This document shows positions 2,346 through 10,305 of a stretch of DNA of 64,000 nucleotides, in pieces. The first letter of the stretch is position 1. Each line of letters begins with the position of its first letter. The stretch comes from Fidelibacterota bacterium (GTDB lineage: Bacteria > Fidelibacterota > Marinisomatia > Marinisomatales > TCS55). Location of the stretch: positions 248,001 to 312,000 of the forward strand of contig SCKN01000002.1 of assembly GCA_004124385.1 (NCBI GenBank), written 5' to 3'. The position numbers and the translations under genes were made by a program. The notes beneath the pieces were generated by a model. That model was not told the origin of the DNA and made no database searches. It was given only the letters and a program-made list of their open reading frames with translations.

Positions 2346-3407
2346 TTAATCGCCAGCCAGTTGTTCCTGCTGATCTGCCAATTTCAATTGTTCAATTAAT
2401 TCAGCTATATCCCCGTCCATCACACTTTCAAGATTATAAGCAGTATAGTTAATTCTGTGATCCGTAATTCTTCCTTGGGGGAAATTGTATGTACGAATCT
2501 TTGCCGATCTGTCTCCAGTTGAAACCATCGATTTCCGGGCAGATGCACGCTCATGAGCTAATCGATCTTGTTCTTGTGCTAATAATCTTGAACGCAATAC
2601 TTTCATGCCAAGCAAACGATTTTGATGCTGCGATTTTTCATCCTGACAAGAGACAACTAATCCAGTTGGTAAATGTGTAATTCGAATAGCTGATTCAGTT
2701 TTATTTACATGCTGACCACCGGCGCCGCTAGCTCTAAAAGTATCAATTTTCAAATCGCCTTCATTTATTTCAATTTCTGCTTCTTCTGCTTCAGGAAGAA
2801 TAGCCACCGTTGCAGCTGAAGTATGTACTCTTCCACCAGCTTCAGTCTTAGGAACTCGTTGTACACGATGAACGCCACTCTCATATTTCATAAGGCCATA
2901 TGCACCTTTTCCTATAACAGAAAATATGATTTCTTTATATCCACCGATACCAGTATCATTCATTTGCATAATTTCTCTTTTCCAGTTATTACGCTCTGCA
3001 AATCGAGTATATAGCCTAAAAAGATCTGCAGCGAATAAAGCTGCTTCATCGCCACCTGTTCCTGCCCGTATTTCAACAATGGTATTTTTATCATCATTGG
3101 GGTCTTTTGGAATAAGCATGATTTTTAATTCTTCTTCTAAATCGATCTTTTTATCTTTCAATTCTAAAATTTCTTCCTGGGCCATTTCTTTTAGTTCAGC
3201 ATCATCCCCATCAATAATTTCTTGATCATCTGCAATATGCTGTAGTATCACTAAATATTGTTGACCTTTGAGCACAACAGGAGCCAATTGACTGTGTTCC
3301 TGGGCTGTTACTTTTAACTTATTATGATCATTCATAACATCGGGATCTGCTAATATATTGCCCAATTCTTCATGGCGGGCAATGACAGTCTTTATCTTCT
3401 CTTTCAC
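2346..3407 (-). CDS. prfA: peptide chain release factor 1
   Basis: RF1 reads UAA and UAG stop codons on the ribosome and triggers peptide release. The 353-aa protein has the usual N-terminal helical domain and the '[11 protein letters not shown]' segment at 117-127. The PxT stop-codon recognition tripeptide appears as PKT at 186-188, in the context '[17 protein letters not shown]'. The catalytic GGQ is at 230-232 in '[15 protein letters not shown]'. The middle residue of the PxT tripeptide is lysine rather than the alanine of E. coli. The ATG overlaps the stop of the DUF1385 gene by 4 bases, and prmC follows without a gap. Confidence 0.96.
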
Positions 3408-4366
3408 CCGATAGCCTCTGCAGTATATTCTTTGCCAACCATATCATCATACTTTTCCCCAAAAGCATTTTGCAAAGCAGTTATGGCCACCTCCACCATT
3501 TCATCTTCTGGCGGCTGTGTTGTAATTCGCTGCAGCCATAATCCAGGAGCCCTTAATGCGCGAAAGAGTAATAAGTCCCCTTTGCGTGCCGTTAGTTTAA
3601 TGATTTCGTAAGAGATACCAGCCACAAGAGGCATTAAAGGCAAATGAAAAGCAAGGCGGTGAAAAATAGTTATATCCCCAAAAATAGCCATTACAATTGT
3701 GTCTATCATGGCAAATACAAGAATAGCTGACAATAATACAATAAACATAAAACTGGTTCCGCAGCGGGGATGATATGTAGAAAATGATTGAGCATTATCT
3801 ATGGTTACTTCTTTTCCAGACTCAAAATTGAACACAACACGATGCTCCGCACCATGGTATCTAAATAAGCGTTTAACATCTTTCATCAAAGAAATAGCTA
3901 ACAAATACAATATGAAAAAGGTTATGCGAAAGAATCCGGAAACTAGGTTAAAGGCCAATGCTTCCCTTTCAATATCCATTAGCCATGCGGTTAGTGCCAA
4001 AGGGGCGACCATAAACATTCCAACGGCTAATGAAACAGCAAACAATGTTGAAAAGAAATTGGCAAGTTTCCCAGGTTGATTTTCTGCTTCATCAGGAAAA
4101 GCAATTTCCGCTGACCATTGCAAAGTCTTCATACCCATTTTCATTGATTCAAATAAAGCCATCATGCCCCGCAGGATGGGTCTTTTCCAGAAACTTGATG
4201 TTTGTACTTTTGAAGTGAAATCATATTTGTCCACGTGCACTTTACCTTCAGGATCGCGAACTGCTGTTGCATACGCTCCCGGTACACGCATCATAACGCC
4301 TTCTATAACGGCTTGGCCGCCTACAAGGATCGATGGTTTCATTAGAGTTAGAAGTAGATGTTTCAT
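3404..4366 (-). CDS. DUF1385 family membrane protein
   Basis: This is a 320-aa membrane protein of the DUF1385 (YqhQ-like) family, whose biochemical function is not established. The signature '[20 protein letters not shown]' lies near the N-terminus, and '[16 protein letters not shown]' and '[12 protein letters not shown]' lie in the middle. Hydrophobic segments at roughly 85-125, 140-165 and 205-255 indicate several membrane passes. DUF1385 genes are commonly found between rpmE and prfA, exactly as here. An internal ATG at 4342 ([10 protein letters not shown]) fits the usual N-terminus of the family better and may be the true start; neither ATG has a clear Shine-Dalgarno sequence. Confidence 0.88.
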
Positions 4367-4432: not shown

Positions 4433-4639
4433 TTACTGAGCTGCTTTGCCGTATTTCACATTAAATTTTTCTATACGTCCAGCAGTATCTATCAGTTTCT
4501 GCTTTCCAGAAAAGAATGGATGGCAGACTGAACAGATCTCAATCCGTTGATCACCCAAAGTACTGTATACTTCGAATGTATGACCACATGCACAATGCAC
4601 GTTGCCAAGTTTATAATCGGGATGTATTCCCTGTTTCAT
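4433..4639 (-). CDS. rpmE: 50S ribosomal protein L31 (zinc-binding type)
   Basis: L31 is a 68-aa protein of the large ribosomal subunit that bridges toward the small subunit. The N-terminus [10 protein letters not shown] is typical of the family. Four cysteines (C16, C18, C36, C39) mark it as the zinc-binding C+ form rather than the zinc-free paralogue. The region '[20 protein letters not shown]' is the conserved C-terminal part. A Shine-Dalgarno-like AAAGGAG lies just upstream of the ATG. It heads the run rpmE, DUF1385, prfA, prmC, UbiA, dnaE. Confidence 0.96.
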
Positions 4640-4652
4640 AATAAAACTCCTT

Positions 4653-5864
4653 TTATGTCAATTTTTCTAAAGCGTTTGCCACTTTCGACAAACCACGTTT
4701 AATCGTCTCTTTATCAGTGGCACACGAAAATCTTATATGCCCTGGTGCACCAAAACCATCTCCAGGCACCGTGACTACAGACTCTGAATTTAATATATAA
4801 TCACTCAGGTCGAAAGAATCCTGAATAACTTTTCCATTTACTTTTTTCCCTAAATACTCAGAAAAATTTGGAAAAGTATAAAACGCGCCTCCGGGTACAG
4901 CACATGACACTCCAGGAATATCATTCAATAGCTTTACCATTAAATCCCGCCGTTCTTTGAATTGCAAACGCATTTCCTCTACGGGCCGCTGATCACCAGT
5001 TAACGCTGCAATGGCGGCTCGCTGACCGATGGAATTTGCACAGGAGGTTGCCTGTCCCTGAAGTTTACTCATGGCCTCGATAATAGTTTGATCTCCCGCC
5101 GCATAACCAATACGCCATCCTGTCATTGCGTATGTTTTAGAAAGACTCATGCATGTGATGACTCGAGCACCAATATTATGGTCACGATTAAGCTTTTCAG
5201 TGCTTATAAATTCACCATCAAATATCAGACGTTCATAACATTCATCTGAAATAATAGTCCAATCATGCAATGCGGCTATTTTTAACAAACGGATTAAAGC
5301 TTCTTCCCCCCACACTCCGCCAGTTGGATTTGAGGGTGAGTTGACAATCACACCTTTTATTGCAGAGGTAATCTTATTTTCAAGATCTTCAAAATCTGCT
5401 TCAAATTGCTTATCTGGGAGAGTATTAACTAATACGGGTTCTGCATCTGCAAGGCGAACAAATTCAGGGAAAGACACCCAGTACGGAGAAAAGACAACCA
5501 CTTCATCCCCTTTATCAAATAACGCTTGGCAGGCATTATACAAGCTTTGTTTTTCTCCATTAGAAACGAGGATTTCAGTTGGTCTATATTCTAACTTATT
5601 TTCACGTTTCAATTTTTCACAAATAGCTTGGCGAAGTTCTATCATACCCGGACCGGCTGTATATTTTGTATAACCATCATCCATAGCTGCTTTACCGGCC
5701 GCAATAATGTGTTCCGGAGTATTAAAATCAGGTTCACCGACACTGAAATTAATAACATCAATTCCTTGAGATCTCATATCGGCTGCTTTTGAAGCCATCT
5801 CCAGAGTAAACGATGGCTTAACCCGTTCTACTCGGGACGCTAATTTTACAGTTTTTGACTTCAT
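4653..5864 (-). CDS. aspC: pyridoxal-phosphate aminotransferase, aspartate aminotransferase type
   Basis: This is a fold-type I PLP enzyme of 403 aa, most similar in motifs to bacterial aspartate aminotransferases of the Thermus/Bacillus kind (subgroup 1-gamma). The PLP lysine is K243 in '[15 protein letters not shown]'. The cofactor-binding NPTG is at 179-182, with '[12 protein letters not shown]' (D207, Y210) and the C-terminal substrate arginine in '[12 protein letters not shown]'. It interconverts aspartate and oxaloacetate with 2-oxoglutarate and glutamate; some relatives also use prephenate, which sequence alone does not exclude. The start codon directly follows the stop of the Cas6b-like gene, so the two are probably cotranscribed. 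Confidence 0.87.
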
Positions 5865-6848
5865 TTACAGCTCATGCTGCATTTTGTGAAATTCTGGACT
5901 ATTGAATTTGTTTTCTTCCGGCGACTTCTTTTCTTTTTTAACTCGTTTGGGGGGGTTAGTTACGGGTTGTTTATCTTCTTCGATTTCAAATTCCTCTGAA
6001 AGCACTTTTTTAGTGCTCTTTTTTGGTTTACTTCTTTTTACTTTATGCCTTTTGGGTTTGGGGACATCTTCAACAGATACACCTTCAAGATCTGATTCAG
6101 CTAATAAGGTAGATTCTAACTCATCTCCACCAGCATCTTCCAAACTGCCTTCATCAAACGAAAATGATTTCGGATTAAACATCCCATAGACTGCGCCATA
6201 ACCGCGCGTAATACCATTCCCGATACCTAAATAATTTGGTAAAAGAAAATTGGTTCTAAATTCACCTGAAAAAGCACCCCAATTACGTTCATCTACTGGT
6301 TTTGGAAACAGAGAGGTTAAGTTCACTTTTGTAAATATTTTTTCTTGGAGTTCAATTCCCATTTCCCGAGCTAAAAAGACGATATTTTGACCGAGCAATC
6401 GATTCAAAAATCCAATGCGTTCCATATTGTTCAAAATTCGATAACGACTTCCTGTCATCTGATTAAGAGCAACCCATGGAGTTAATAATCGATAGCGAAT
6501 TAATCGTCCAACGGGCCTGAACTGGTCATCCTTTGTGTCTACTTCCGTGTCAAATACTTGAAAAGTAATATTTCCAAAATCTAAAATATCTAATCTTTCA
6601 GTCAATTCGATTATTGGATCTACACCTTCATTTATTCCAACCATATATATCTGCTCATTCAAAATCTTGATTTGAACACGTGGGTATAAAAATCGATTTC
6701 TATAGGTACCATCCATCATAGGTACAATCTCTAAATCAGAATACTGACGCATAAAAACGCCTTTAACCTGATAGGGAGTTTTTCTAACGGGTTTATCTGT
6801 TATAATCCGAGCAATTGTTGTCCGAATTGGTGGACCACTATATTCCAT
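5865..6848 (-). CDS. Cas6b-like RAMP protein with charged C-terminal tail, no CRISPR context
   Basis: The first ~225 of 327 residues follow the layout of Cas6b, the CRISPR RNA endonuclease common in type I-B systems. An N-terminal ferredoxin-like half contains 'VKGVFMRQYSDLEIVP', 'FLYPRVQIKI' and 'YMVGINEG'. A C-terminal half has 'YRLLTPWVALNQ' (120-130), 'NIVFLAREMGIELQ' and the glycine-rich RNA-binding loop 'LPNYLGIGNGITRGYGAVY' (203-221). Cas6b active-site histidines normally lie in a segment like 'LLHNH' before the 'YRYP.iQYK' strand; here that place reads 'EIVPMM', and no histidine occurs in residues 1-225. Residues 226-327 form a low-complexity tail, first acidic, then rich in lysine and proline. 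The gene lies 63 bases after rho and abuts aspC. I see no repeats or other cas genes. RNA binding is likely; cleavage is doubtful. The family match is from memory of the motifs. Confidence 0.75.
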   Translation of the reverse strand: MEYSGPPIRTTIARIITDKPVRKTPYQVKGVFMRQYSDLEIVPMMDGTYRNRFLYPRVQIKILNEQIYMVGINEGVDPIIELTERLDILDFGNITFQVFDTEVDTKDDQFRPVGRLIRYRLLTPWVALNQMTGSRYRILNNMERIGFLNRLLGQNIVFLAREMGIELQEKIFTKVNLTSLFPKPVDERNWGAFSGEFRTNFLLPNYLGIGNGITRGYGAVYGMFNPKSFSFDEGSLEDAGGDELESTLLAESDLEGVSVEDVPKPKRHKVKRSKPKKSTKKVLSEEFEIEEDKQPVTNPPKRVKKEKKSPEENKFNSPEFHKMQHEL

Positions 6849-6911
6849 ATATATACCTCTTGCACACTTTTTTATAATTAAAGGCGCTACTCCTTCCAGG
6901 GGAAATTAAGC

Positions 6912-8159
6912 TTACTGGCTCATTGTTTCCATAAATTCTTCATTAGACTTTGTGCGCTTCATTCTCGATATTAAAAACTCCATAGCTTCAATAACATTCA
7001 TTTCGTTTAGCAGTTTTCGTAAAATCCACATCCTGGCTAATATTTTTTTATCCAATAATAATTCTTCTTTTCTAGTACCTGAACGCACAATATCAAACGA
7101 AGGATAAATCCTGCGATCGCTCAAACGTCTATCCAAGACGAGTTCCATATTTCCAGTTCCTTTAAATTCTTCAAAGATAACTTCGTCCATACGGCTACCA
7201 GTATCAATAAGAGCTGTGGCAATAATTGTTAGACTGCCACTTTCTATAGTATTCCGAGCTGCCCCAAAGAATTGTTTTGGCTTTTTCAACGCATTGGCAT
7301 CTACACCACCGGAAAGAATTTTTCCGCTATGAGGAATCACAGCATTATGAGCTCGACCTAAACGTGTTAAACTATCCAACAAAATAACTACATCGTCGCC
7401 ATATTCCACCATGCGTTTTGCTTTCTGTAAAACCATATCAGCAACAGCAACGTGCCGTTCCGGTGGCTCATCAAATGTTGAACTCACAACTTCAGCTTCA
7501 ACTTGGCGTTTCATATCCGTAACTTCTTCTGGTCGCTCATCGATAAGTAAAATGATTAATTTAACTTTCGGATGATTTTTTAAAAGTGAATTAGCTATTT
7601 TCTGCAATAATATCGTTTTACCTGTCTTAGGCTGGGCAACGATTAAGCCGCGTTGACCTTTACCTATAGGTGATATAAAATCCATAATACGAGTTGACAT
7701 GTCTTTTGAGTCTGATTCAAGATTGAATTTTACTTCAGGGTAAAGGGGTGTCAAATTATCGAAAAGAATAACCTGTTTGACATGGTCCGGACTTTTATCA
7801 TTTACTGTTTCCACTTTTAACAAGGCATAAAACCGTTCTTTATCTTTCGGGTGACGAATCTGCCCATAAACAGAATGGCCTGTCCGTAAACCAAACCGTT
7901 TGATTTGAGACGGGCTGACATAAATATCATCAGGTCCAGGTAAATAATTGAAATCGGGACTACGTAAAAAACCATAGCCTTCCTTTAATACTTCCAAGAC
8001 ACCTTTGGCATTCAAAATACCTTCTTTTTCATTTTGTGTTTCCAGTATTTTGACAATTAACTCCTGTTTATTTAAACCGGAATAGCCTGGGATGTCCAAT
8101 TCCCGGGCTTTTGTTACCAATTCTTTAATGTTCATTGAGTGTACTTGATTAATGTCCAT
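6912..8159 (-). CDS. rho: transcription termination factor Rho
   Basis: Rho is a hexameric RNA-dependent ATPase that ends transcription. The 415-aa protein has the N-terminal Rho_N helix bundle (about 9-45), the cold-shock-like RNA-binding domain with '[23 protein letters not shown]' as its core, and the RecA-like motor. The Walker A motif is QPKTGKT (176-182), the Walker B strand is '[16 protein letters not shown]', and '[20 protein letters not shown]' is the Q/R-loop region. There is no long insertion between domains, unlike many Bacteroidota Rho proteins. A GGAG sequence 11 bases before the ATG at 8159 supports this start over the internal ATG at codon 9. The Cas6b-like gene follows after 63 bases. 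Confidence 0.96.
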
Positions 8160-8261: not shown

Positions 8262-9512
8262 CTAAATCACACCAGAGTCAAAGGAAAATTGAAAATGCTT
8301 AAAAACGGCTTCTGCAATATAATGAGAGCCAAAAATGATACCTGATTGGTCGTTGTCTAGATATGATGTGAAACCCTTAATATCGTCCAATGGTGTTGCC
8401 ATAATTCCGTGAGTATTTAATTTCATTGATAATTTGTTTGCTCTCATTAATAATCCATTTTTATCATCCATAACAAAAAGTGTTTCAAATTGGTTATAGA
8501 GGCAACTAACGATTAATTCCAGTTTTTTATCTTTTTTTAAAGCAAATAAGCCTATAGGTTTCTTTCCAAATATATTAGTGTATGTTTTCAGGGCAGCCTT
8601 AATCCCTTGCGCATTATGTGCAACATCGTATATCACAAAAGGATCTCTGGATAAAACCTGAAATCGGCCTGGCCAAGAAGCCTTTTCTATTCCGACTTTA
8701 ATAGCTTCCTCTTTAACAGAAAAACCTATTTCCCTTACGGCTTCAATAGCCACGGATGCATTCTGTGCTTGATGTTCACCCATTAAGGATAAATGATACT
8801 CTACTTCCTCGTGTAAAAAATACGTGCCGTCAACTGTTACTGTACTCTTTTTTGGTGGTTTAATAAACTTTACCTGTGTTTGCATTTCTAATGCTTTTTC
8901 TACTAATACTTCTTTTACAATTTTTTCCTGATAGCCGCTTATAACAGAGATGTTTTCTTTGATGATACCTGCTTTTTCTTGAGCAATGGATTTTAGATTA
9001 TTTCCTAATAAATCACAATGATCCATTCCTATCGGTGTAATTACAGATATTTCAGGTATAATAACATTGGTAGAATCCAGACGACCACCTAATCCTGTTT
9101 CTATGACAGCTATATCAACATTTTCTTGTTCAAAGTACCAAAAAGCCATAGCAGTTGTTGTTTCGAAGAACGTACTCTCAATGCGTTTTATATCGTCAGA
9201 ATACACTTGCATGAACTCAACAATTTTCTCATTACAAATTGGCACTCCATTCACTCTAATACGTTCATTAAACTGCACAAGATGGGGAGAAGTATAGAGT
9301 CCAACTTTTAATCCTGAAGATCGTAAGATTGAATCAATAAACGCTGCGGTTGATCCTTTCCCATTTGTCCCTGCCAGGTGGATGAATTTTAATCGTTGGT
9401 GTGGATTGGAGCAGGTATCAAGCAGTTGAAACGTATGCTCTAGCCCTGTTTTAATCCCCAAGCGCTGTAATTTGAATAAATCCTGAAGAAGTGTCTGAAA
9501 ATCAGATTTCAT
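8262..9512 (-). CDS. folC: bifunctional folylpolyglutamate / dihydrofolate synthase
   Basis: FolC adds glutamate to dihydropteroate and then to folates in an ATP-dependent reaction. The protein is about 416 aa from the ATG at 9512. The P-loop is GTNGKGST near residue 50, followed by 'YTSPHLVQFNERI' and 'VIETGLGGRLDSTNVI'; 'ITPIGMDHCDLLGNNLKSIA' and 'YDVAHNAQGIKAAL' are further Mur-ligase/FolC signatures. A longer reading from an ATG at 9542 exists, but it would overlap murI by 41 bases. The shorter start (MKSDFQTLLQDLFKL) matches the family N-terminus and leaves an 11-base overlap. Confidence 0.92.
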   Translation of the reverse strand: MKSDFQTLLQDLFKLQRLGIKTGLEHTFQLLDTCSNPHQRLKFIHLAGTNGKGSTAAFIDSILRSSGLKVGLYTSPHLVQFNERIRVNGVPICNEKIVEFMQVYSDDIKRIESTFFETTTAMAFWYFEQENVDIAVIETGLGGRLDSTNVIIPEISVITPIGMDHCDLLGNNLKSIAQEKAGIIKENISVISGYQEKIVKEVLVEKALEMQTQVKFIKPPKKSTVTVDGTYFLHEEVEYHLSLMGEHQAQNASVAIEAVREIGFSVKEEAIKVGIEKASWPGRFQVLSRDPFVIYDVAHNAQGIKAALKTYTNIFGKKPIGLFALKKDKKLELIVSCLYNQFETLFVMDDKNGLLMRANKLSMKLNTHGIMATPLDDIKGFTSYLDNDQSGIIFGSHYIAEAVFKHFQFSFDSGVI

Positions 9513-10305
9513 GTACGGTTTGAACATGGTCCATGGGGGCACCTAAAAATCGCTGACCTACTAATTCAAAGCGCATGGGGATATCAGTGACAAAACAAGA
9601 CAGCGTTCCCAGTTCATTGCAATTATTAAGTTGATTTATTTCCAACAGCTTGACCTTAATTGCCCTAGCTACAGCGGCGGCTGAATCAATTAATACTGTC
9701 CCATTACTAACCTGTTTTGATATAACATCTTTTAAAAGAGGATAATGTGTACATCCCAAAATAAGTGTATCAATTTTTTTATCATTTAATGGAGAGATAT
9801 AATGTTTCACAATTGCATTTACGACATCACCGGCCAGCCAGCCCTCTTCAGCTAATGGAACCAATAATGGACATGCATGGGAAATTGTTTGGATATCTTT
9901 GTTTATTCTAATTAATGCTATTTCATACGCTTTTGAAGAAATGGTCGCCACGGTTCCAATAATACCAATATTATTATTATTAGTTGCTTTAACGGCCTCA
10001 TCAGCGCCCGGATCAATAACTCCAATGACGGGTATAGACGTGTTAGACTGTAACTCATTTAACGCTAACGCTGATGCTGTATTACAGGCCACTACAATCA
10101 ATTTTGCATCATTTTTAATCAAAAAGTGTGTGATTTCTCTTGAATATTCCTGGATTAATTCCTGGCTTTTATTACCATATGGTACTCTGGCAGTATCGCC
10201 AAAATAAACAATGGATTCGTTTGGCAAAATATTTCGAAGGGCTTTGACTACAGTCAAACCTCCTAATCCAGAATCAAAAACTCCGATGGGCCTTAAATCT
10301 GCCAT
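9502..10305 (-). CDS. murI: glutamate racemase
   Basis: MurI converts L-glutamate to the D-glutamate needed for peptidoglycan. The 267-aa protein shows the family signature 'IGVFDSGLGGLTVVKAL' and 'VYFGDTARVPYG'. The two catalytic cysteines are present: C74 in 'VVACNTASALAL' and C185 in 'LILGCTHYPLL'. The start codon shares one base with the stop of the upstream amidase gene (TAATG). Grouping with an N-acetylmuramoyl-L-alanine amidase makes a small cell-wall cluster. Confidence 0.95.
   Translation of the reverse strand: MADLRPIGVFDSGLGGLTVVKALRNILPNESIVYFGDTARVPYGNKSQELIQEYSREITHFLIKNDAKLIVVACNTASALALNELQSNTSIPVIGVIDPGADEAVKATNNNNIGIIGTVATISSKAYEIALIRINKDIQTISHACPLLVPLAEEGWLAGDVVNAIVKHYISPLNDKKIDTLILGCTHYPLLKDVISKQVSNGTVLIDSAAAVARAIKVKLLEINQLNNCNELGTLSCFVTDIPMRFELVGQRFLGAPMDHVQTVHEI

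Follow-up and report, generated by a model that had tools for sequence, protein, structure and literature searches.

In the 64-kb window analysed here, the complete stretch of 64,000 nucleotides from contig SCKN01000002.1 (positions 248,001 to 312,000), a gene for a Cas6b-like protein is located directly behind rho. The organism belongs to the Neomarinimicrobiota (Marinimicrobia, SAR406), and its genome comprises 2.09 Mb and is 97% complete. The gene, designated cas6L, starts with ATG and ends with TAA. An original prediction, made without database searches, had described its product as similar to Cas6b, the RNA endonuclease of type I-B CRISPR (clustered regularly interspaced short palindromic repeats) systems, and had suggested that it was recruited for cellular RNA and is perhaps related to Rho-dependent transcription. 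The gene, its two domains and rho are arranged as follows.

6912..8159, minus strand: rho, 415 amino acids, with Rho_N, Rho_RNA_bind and ATP-synt_ab domains; the invariant upstream neighbour of cas6L
6849..6911, minus strand: gap of 63 bases separating cas6L from rho; this strand shows no terminator-like site
5865..6848, minus strand, stop codon included: cas6L, the rho-linked Cas6b-like gene, 327 amino acids, defined by its open reading frame and by profile, PDB and fold matches
6528..6827, minus strand: N-terminal RAMP/ferredoxin half, residues 8-107, Pfam Cas6b_N, AlphaFold pLDDT mostly 94-98
6684..6731, minus strand: degenerate catalytic segment EIVPMMDGTYRNRFLY, residues 40-55; Pro43 occupies the position of the first catalytic histidine of Methanococcus maripaludis Cas6b and the column of the second is deleted (we take these histidines to be His38 and His40)
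6189..6506, minus strand: C-terminal RAMP half, residues 115-220, from Pfam Cas6b_C and AlphaFold
6195..6227, minus strand: glycine-rich loop GIGNGITRGYG, residues 208-218, with Asn211 where CRISPR-type proteins have Lys/Arg; Arg215 is kept

The open reading frame encodes a genuine Cas6b homologue by family and by fold. Both Pfam profiles matched above their curated cut-offs (Cas6b_C with E = 1e-23 and 84 bits, cut-off 39; Cas6b_N with E = 1.5e-10 and 41.5 bits, cut-off 25), PADLOC reported Cas6/Cas6b with high confidence (5e-39), and the sole match in a PDB sequence search was M. maripaludis Cas6b (4z7k, 1.9e-26). In an AlphaFold2 model based on 60 homologues, the core reached a pLDDT of about 96, and the tail from about residue 230 was mostly of low confidence. 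The model showed a double RAMP/ferredoxin fold with a C-terminal glycine-rich loop, and Foldseek comparison to the PDB placed Cas6b 4z7k/4z7l first (E down to 3.9e-18, TM-score 0.78 over the target), with type IV Csf5 and further Cas6 proteins next. Thus, the M. maripaludis protein of the type I-B system, with about 25-27% identity, is the closest known relative in sequence and fold. Csf5, the CRISPR RNA endonuclease of the type IV effector complex, shares 14-16% identity and a weak fold-level similarity. The original identification rested on the motifs YPRVQIK, YRLLTPWVALNQ and GIGNGITRGYG, which were all found in the reading frame, and two of the checks named with it, Pfam profiles and structure prediction, both led to Cas6b. 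No NCBIfam profile matched Cas6L; with a PADLOC call and no NCBIfam call, CRISPR screens may report false Cas6 proteins in this phylum.

Matches to Cas6b_C were obtained in 113 of 171 genomes of the class and in 130 of 245 genomes of the phylum. Four of the latter (G191, G193, G209, G218) contain the CRISPR-type protein only, which leaves about 126 carriers of cas6L, a count for which the loci were not all inspected one by one. In the family of the window organism, the gene is present in 36 of 40 genomes and in all 16 of the good ones. Its position is invariant. At all 115 parsed non-redundant loci of the rho type, cas6L immediately follows rho in the same orientation. The same order is found at one more locus (L198), where overlapping frames had hidden it from the parser, two further rho-type loci run out at a contig edge, and all loci of another type encode CRISPR-type proteins. 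A conserved operon with rho was therefore detected wherever the contig permits the check. The gene following cas6L varies across the 115 loci (aspC at 96, L31 at 4, other genes at 11, end of the locus at 4). The pair of rho and cas6L is all of the cluster that is still together in families f22 and f23. A survey of neighbouring genomes had been named as a check in the original prediction; the relatives proved to adjoin rho, not CRISPR arrays. With the significant profile matches, neither of the two refuting conditions given in that prediction came true.

The search was extended to 84,980 GTDB species, and the best 80 of 132 relatives were kept. Among these best 80, 77 loci are of the rho type (76 adjacent, one at a contig end), mostly from Neomarinimicrobiota/Marinimicrobia. 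The other three, from Methanoculleus, a Thermoplasmatales metagenome-assembled genome (MAG) and a Desulfobacula MAG, are CRISPR-type, have kept both histidines (HxH) and are not located beside rho. Beyond the best 80 of the 132, other phyla may contain rho-linked forms with weaker matches. Genomes without cas6L mostly show a clean junction, rho being followed directly by aspC (f9, f16, f17, G168, f24 and most of f30), and in others rho is followed by L31, DUF1385 or unrelated genes. A divergent homologue hidden behind rho was detected in these genomes neither by the family hidden Markov model nor by a sensitive profile search. One early gain followed by several clean losses is the simplest account of this distribution. 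In one MAG (G095), the complete rho-cas6L-aspC operon is present in two versions that belong to different subfamilies (L076 and L077), most likely through contamination (5%) rather than duplication.

Comparison of the rho-linked and CRISPR-type proteins revealed a consistent difference at the catalytic residues. Two histidines have been implicated in catalysis by M. maripaludis Cas6b (PMC3652601). This HxH signature of the endonuclease is absent from 96 of 96 rho-linked proteins: neither column holds a histidine in any of them, and every one has a deletion at the second. Among CRISPR-type proteins with letters at these positions, histidine was found in 8 of 9 and 9 of 9, respectively. The Lys/Arg of the glycine-rich loop, present in 10 of 10 CRISPR-type proteins, is Asn in 90 of the 96. 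Retained basic positions are, in the numbering of the window protein, K/R29, R50, K61, R144 and R/K215, while Tyr26, Arg57, Glu162, Asn211 and Thr214 are new residues specific to the rho-linked clade. In a tree, which has long branches and an unknown root, both groups are split by one branch with support of 99/97. CRISPR-type paralogues occur in a few genomes of the phylum, some of which possess the rho-linked form too, and they have kept their histidines. Type I-B genes surround both examples tested (Cas3, Cas5 and Cas8b at L062; Cas3 and Cas7 at L090), and CRISPR arrays are located beside some of these loci. In one genome with a rho-linked form (G049), a divergent Cas6 (L078, 5700-6383) is found next to an 18-repeat CRISPR array and Cas1.

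Cas6L could still be an endoribonuclease, its active site having been rebuilt without histidine (e.g. from Arg50, Arg57, Lys61, Arg144 and Arg/Lys215), and it could process a single housekeeping RNA or a small number of them, for instance the messenger of the rho operon. The conserved charged residues R57 and E162, specific to the clade, and the retained basic positions would fit such an enzyme, and a precedent is provided by Sulfolobus solfataricus, the Cas6 of which cleaves RNA without histidine by means of lysines and arginines (PMC3652601). This crenarchaeal protein, Sso1437, resembles Cas6L in having a Cas6 fold without the canonical histidine, but it is a CRISPR enzyme, whereas Cas6L has no CRISPR partner. 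Moreover, both histidines and the loop lysine have been lost throughout the clade, the most divergent families included, and the window offers neither an array nor an Rfam RNA as an evident substrate; tRNA, tmRNA and Rfam families, and with the latter any known RNA target for Cas6L, were searched in the 64 kb and not found. A retained nuclease is therefore considered unlikely.

CRISPR partners of Cas6L were looked for in the host genome and in the carriers. No array was detected in the window, and none in the window plus additional stretches amounting to 1.96 of 2.09 Mb of the genome; the remaining 0.13 Mb or so, in parts of contigs 9-11, may in principle contain one. The single array-like match in the 1.96 Mb is a three-copy repeat that looks like coding repeats. 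The genome yielded one Cas6b_N and one Cas6b_C match, both of which are cas6L, and no match to the Cas1, Cas7 and Cas3-HD profiles. Hence, linkage of the window Cas6L to an array or to type I-B effector genes was found neither in cis nor elsewhere in the genome (1.96 of 2.09 Mb for arrays; Cas1, Cas7 and Cas3-HD for cas genes), in agreement with the earlier remark that the 64 kb contain no repeats or other cas genes. Across the 171 genomes of the class, Cas7 was detected in one and Cas3-HD in two, each of which also has an additional CRISPR-type Cas6b. Cas1 is present in about 12 of 126 genomes with Cas6L versus 19 of 119 without it, and Cas6L is therefore not associated with CRISPR; most carriers lack CRISPR partners. 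An ordinary Cas6b, responsible for CRISPR RNA maturation at arrays in other parts of the genome, could be invoked because of the family match and the Cas1 genes in about 12 carriers. This explanation is already contradicted and hardly credible, considering the host genome without array in the part scanned and without Cas1, Cas7 or Cas3-HD, the loss of histidines in 96 of 96, and the several genomes holding a second, histidine-bearing CRISPR-type Cas6b, in some cases among I-B genes or beside arrays.

Pairwise dN/dS (ratio of nonsynonymous to synonymous substitution rates) was 0.048-0.085 for cas6L, compared to 0.04-0.12 for aspC and, where estimable, 0.02-0.046 for rho. cas6L is under strong purifying selection, as is the housekeeping gene beside it. 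When the window is paired with its closest counterparts, the core of 228 residues is about as slow to change as rho, and the tail changes faster. These values also bear on the idea of a stand-alone anti-phage factor derived from Cas6b and residing in a housekeeping operon. Cas6 ancestry and the PADLOC match would agree with it, but defence genes turn over in a way that does not fit a single-copy gene with a fixed address, a vertical pattern and dN/dS in the housekeeping range, which makes the idea very improbable.

The tail of Cas6L is a feature of the order of the window organism and consists of these parts.

5868..6170, minus strand: C-terminal tail, residues 227-327, mostly low-confidence/disordered, present in the window's order only (disorder from AlphaFold)
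5907..6065, minus strand: tail section rich in lysine, residues 262-314, isoelectric point about 10.1
5874..5906, minus strand: C-terminal motif FNSPEFHKMQH, predicted short helix, family form [FY]N[ST]xx[YFH]HK[KR]QH

In the order-level families, the family form of the motif terminates 67 of 70 tailed proteins. The corresponding DNA pattern was detected in 61 of 171 genomes, once in each except for G095, which has two cas6L genes and two hits, and a reversed control gave zero hits; for these reasons the motif is private to Cas6L. It was also considered as a module of other proteins, but it occurs once per carrier (twice in G095), and in the genome of the window only in Cas6L. The motif is probably a docking peptide. 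Taken together, what had been observed at one locus was confirmed and is wider than described, comprising a phylum-wide layout, lost histidines and a conserved lysine-rich tail of about 100 residues.

The remaining genes of the operon are located on the same strand.

8262..10305, minus strand: folC (Mur-ligase domains) and murI, which lie upstream of rho and make the conserved cluster complete (folC by family search; conserved order)
4653..5864, minus strand: aspC-like class I/II aminotransferase gene (family search), a frequent, not invariant, downstream neighbour of cas6L
4433..4639, minus strand: rpmE, ribosomal protein L31 (family search)
3404..4366, minus strand: DUF1385 gene (family search)
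2346..3407, minus strand: prfA-like gene for peptide chain release factor 1, named by its own sequence and conserved position

The ATG of the aminotransferase gene follows the TAA of cas6L with zero gap, so that the coordinates agree with the placement given originally, 63 bases after rho and abutting aspC. Since the gap between rho and cas6L has no terminator-like site on the gene strand, both genes are likely to be co-transcribed. An in-frame fusion of rho and cas6L by readthrough was considered and rejected: cas6L is in the frame of rho at 47 of 115 loci and in the other frames at 38 and 30, which is about chance. The order murI-folC-rho-aspC-L31-DUF1385-prfA is conserved also in the absence of cas6L, and the position of the gene may thus be partly inherited. 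Cas6L could accordingly bind RNA in a context unrelated to Rho, for instance ribosomes or translation in view of the neighbours L31 and prfA, and keep its place by operon inertia. The lack of a clean co-variation signal in Rho would be in line with this, but adjacency to rho survives where the cluster is scattered (f22, f23), and adjacency to aspC does not. A role apart from Rho is therefore regarded as rather unlikely.

Rho itself and another RNA-binding protein were inspected in this respect. The Rho proteins of most families with a tailed Cas6L have K292 and Q296, other lineages mostly have ALHRPKRFFGAARN, and f9 has R and K. As this change follows the phylogeny of the order, it is no evidence of contact with Cas6L. 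A search for the known RNA chaperone Hfq (PF17209) gave no match in the 171 genomes of the class. Complementarity between Hfq and Cas6L was considered, but there is no contrast to evaluate. The absence of Hfq leaves room for another RNA-binding protein and proves nothing.

From these analyses, domestication of Cas6L outside CRISPR is well supported and very likely. It is indicated by the separate clade, the lost histidines, the lack of detectable cas partners and arrays in the host, purifying selection, the vertical pattern and the invariant address, and the recruitment from CRISPR suggested originally gains its support from the same observations. Because the rho-linked clade is narrow and Cas6b is wide in distribution, the change presumably proceeded from CRISPR to housekeeping. 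With the histidines gone and the basic residues and the loop kept, a non-cleaving, RNA-binding role is most likely, and the sequences make loss of histidine-dependent cleavage probable. For Cas6, recognition of RNA and a chaperone-like activity have been argued to matter perhaps as much as cleavage (PMC3652601). We therefore somewhat favor the view that Cas6L is a domesticated Cas6b that binds RNA, probably without cleaving it, and acts on cellular transcripts, perhaps together with Rho. RNA would be bound through the two RAMP halves, histidine-type cutting having been lost, and Cas6L would serve as a sequence-selective chaperone or masking protein. In the order of the window organism, the lysine-rich tail may add RNA affinity and the terminal peptide may dock a partner protein. 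Functional coupling to Rho, suggested by gene order, is a tentative proposal. More speculatively, Cas6L might be made together with Rho because both act on the same nascent RNAs, and it might block or mark Rho loading sites or autoregulate rho. Possible, though on balance doubtful, is the complete scenario in which the phylum ancestor captured a CRISPR RNA endonuclease that lost catalysis and became a Rho partner choosing or blocking Rho loading on nascent transcripts.

Several points weigh against this interpretation. Cleavage by the S. solfataricus protein implies that lost histidines are no proof of lost activity. cas6L is absent from many whole lineages (f16-f18, f24, f26-f29, most of f30, and the streamlined family f9 with genomes of 0.4-1 Mb, in which all members listed lack it), and it is therefore not essential to Rho function. 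Differences in Rho between carriers and non-carriers follow phylogeny without a clean co-variation signal, and operon inertia, a serious rival, could account for the adjacency to rho.

Exaptation of CRISPR parts is mainly known from transposons, plasmids, other mobile elements and defence-like modules. A precedent is provided by solo-Cas4 and further cas components that reside away from CRISPR loci (PMC5704561; PMC8730458). A link between Cas6 and rho, a rho operon with a Cas6 gene, the rho-linked clade itself, or an operon-locked non-CRISPR Cas6 of a whole phylum was not found in the literature, with subscription papers mostly outside the search. Compared to M. maripaludis Cas6b, Cas6L lacks His38 and His40, has Asn for Lys/Arg in the loop and a lysine-rich tail of 100 residues with a terminal motif, is always located behind rho, and has no array or cas genes that could be found.

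A single cas component, without guide arrays, has apparently been fixed in the core gene set that a major phylum of marine bacteria (SAR406/Marinimicrobia) inherits vertically, and apparently been tied to Rho, the most general transcription terminator of bacteria. For annotation this is a warning that screens of the PADLOC type will call Cas6 in genomes without CRISPR. For biology, Cas6L allows a direct test of whether RNA recognition of the Cas6 type can become cellular regulation. If the protein is indeed a partner of Rho, it would represent a transcription-termination factor of CRISPR origin.
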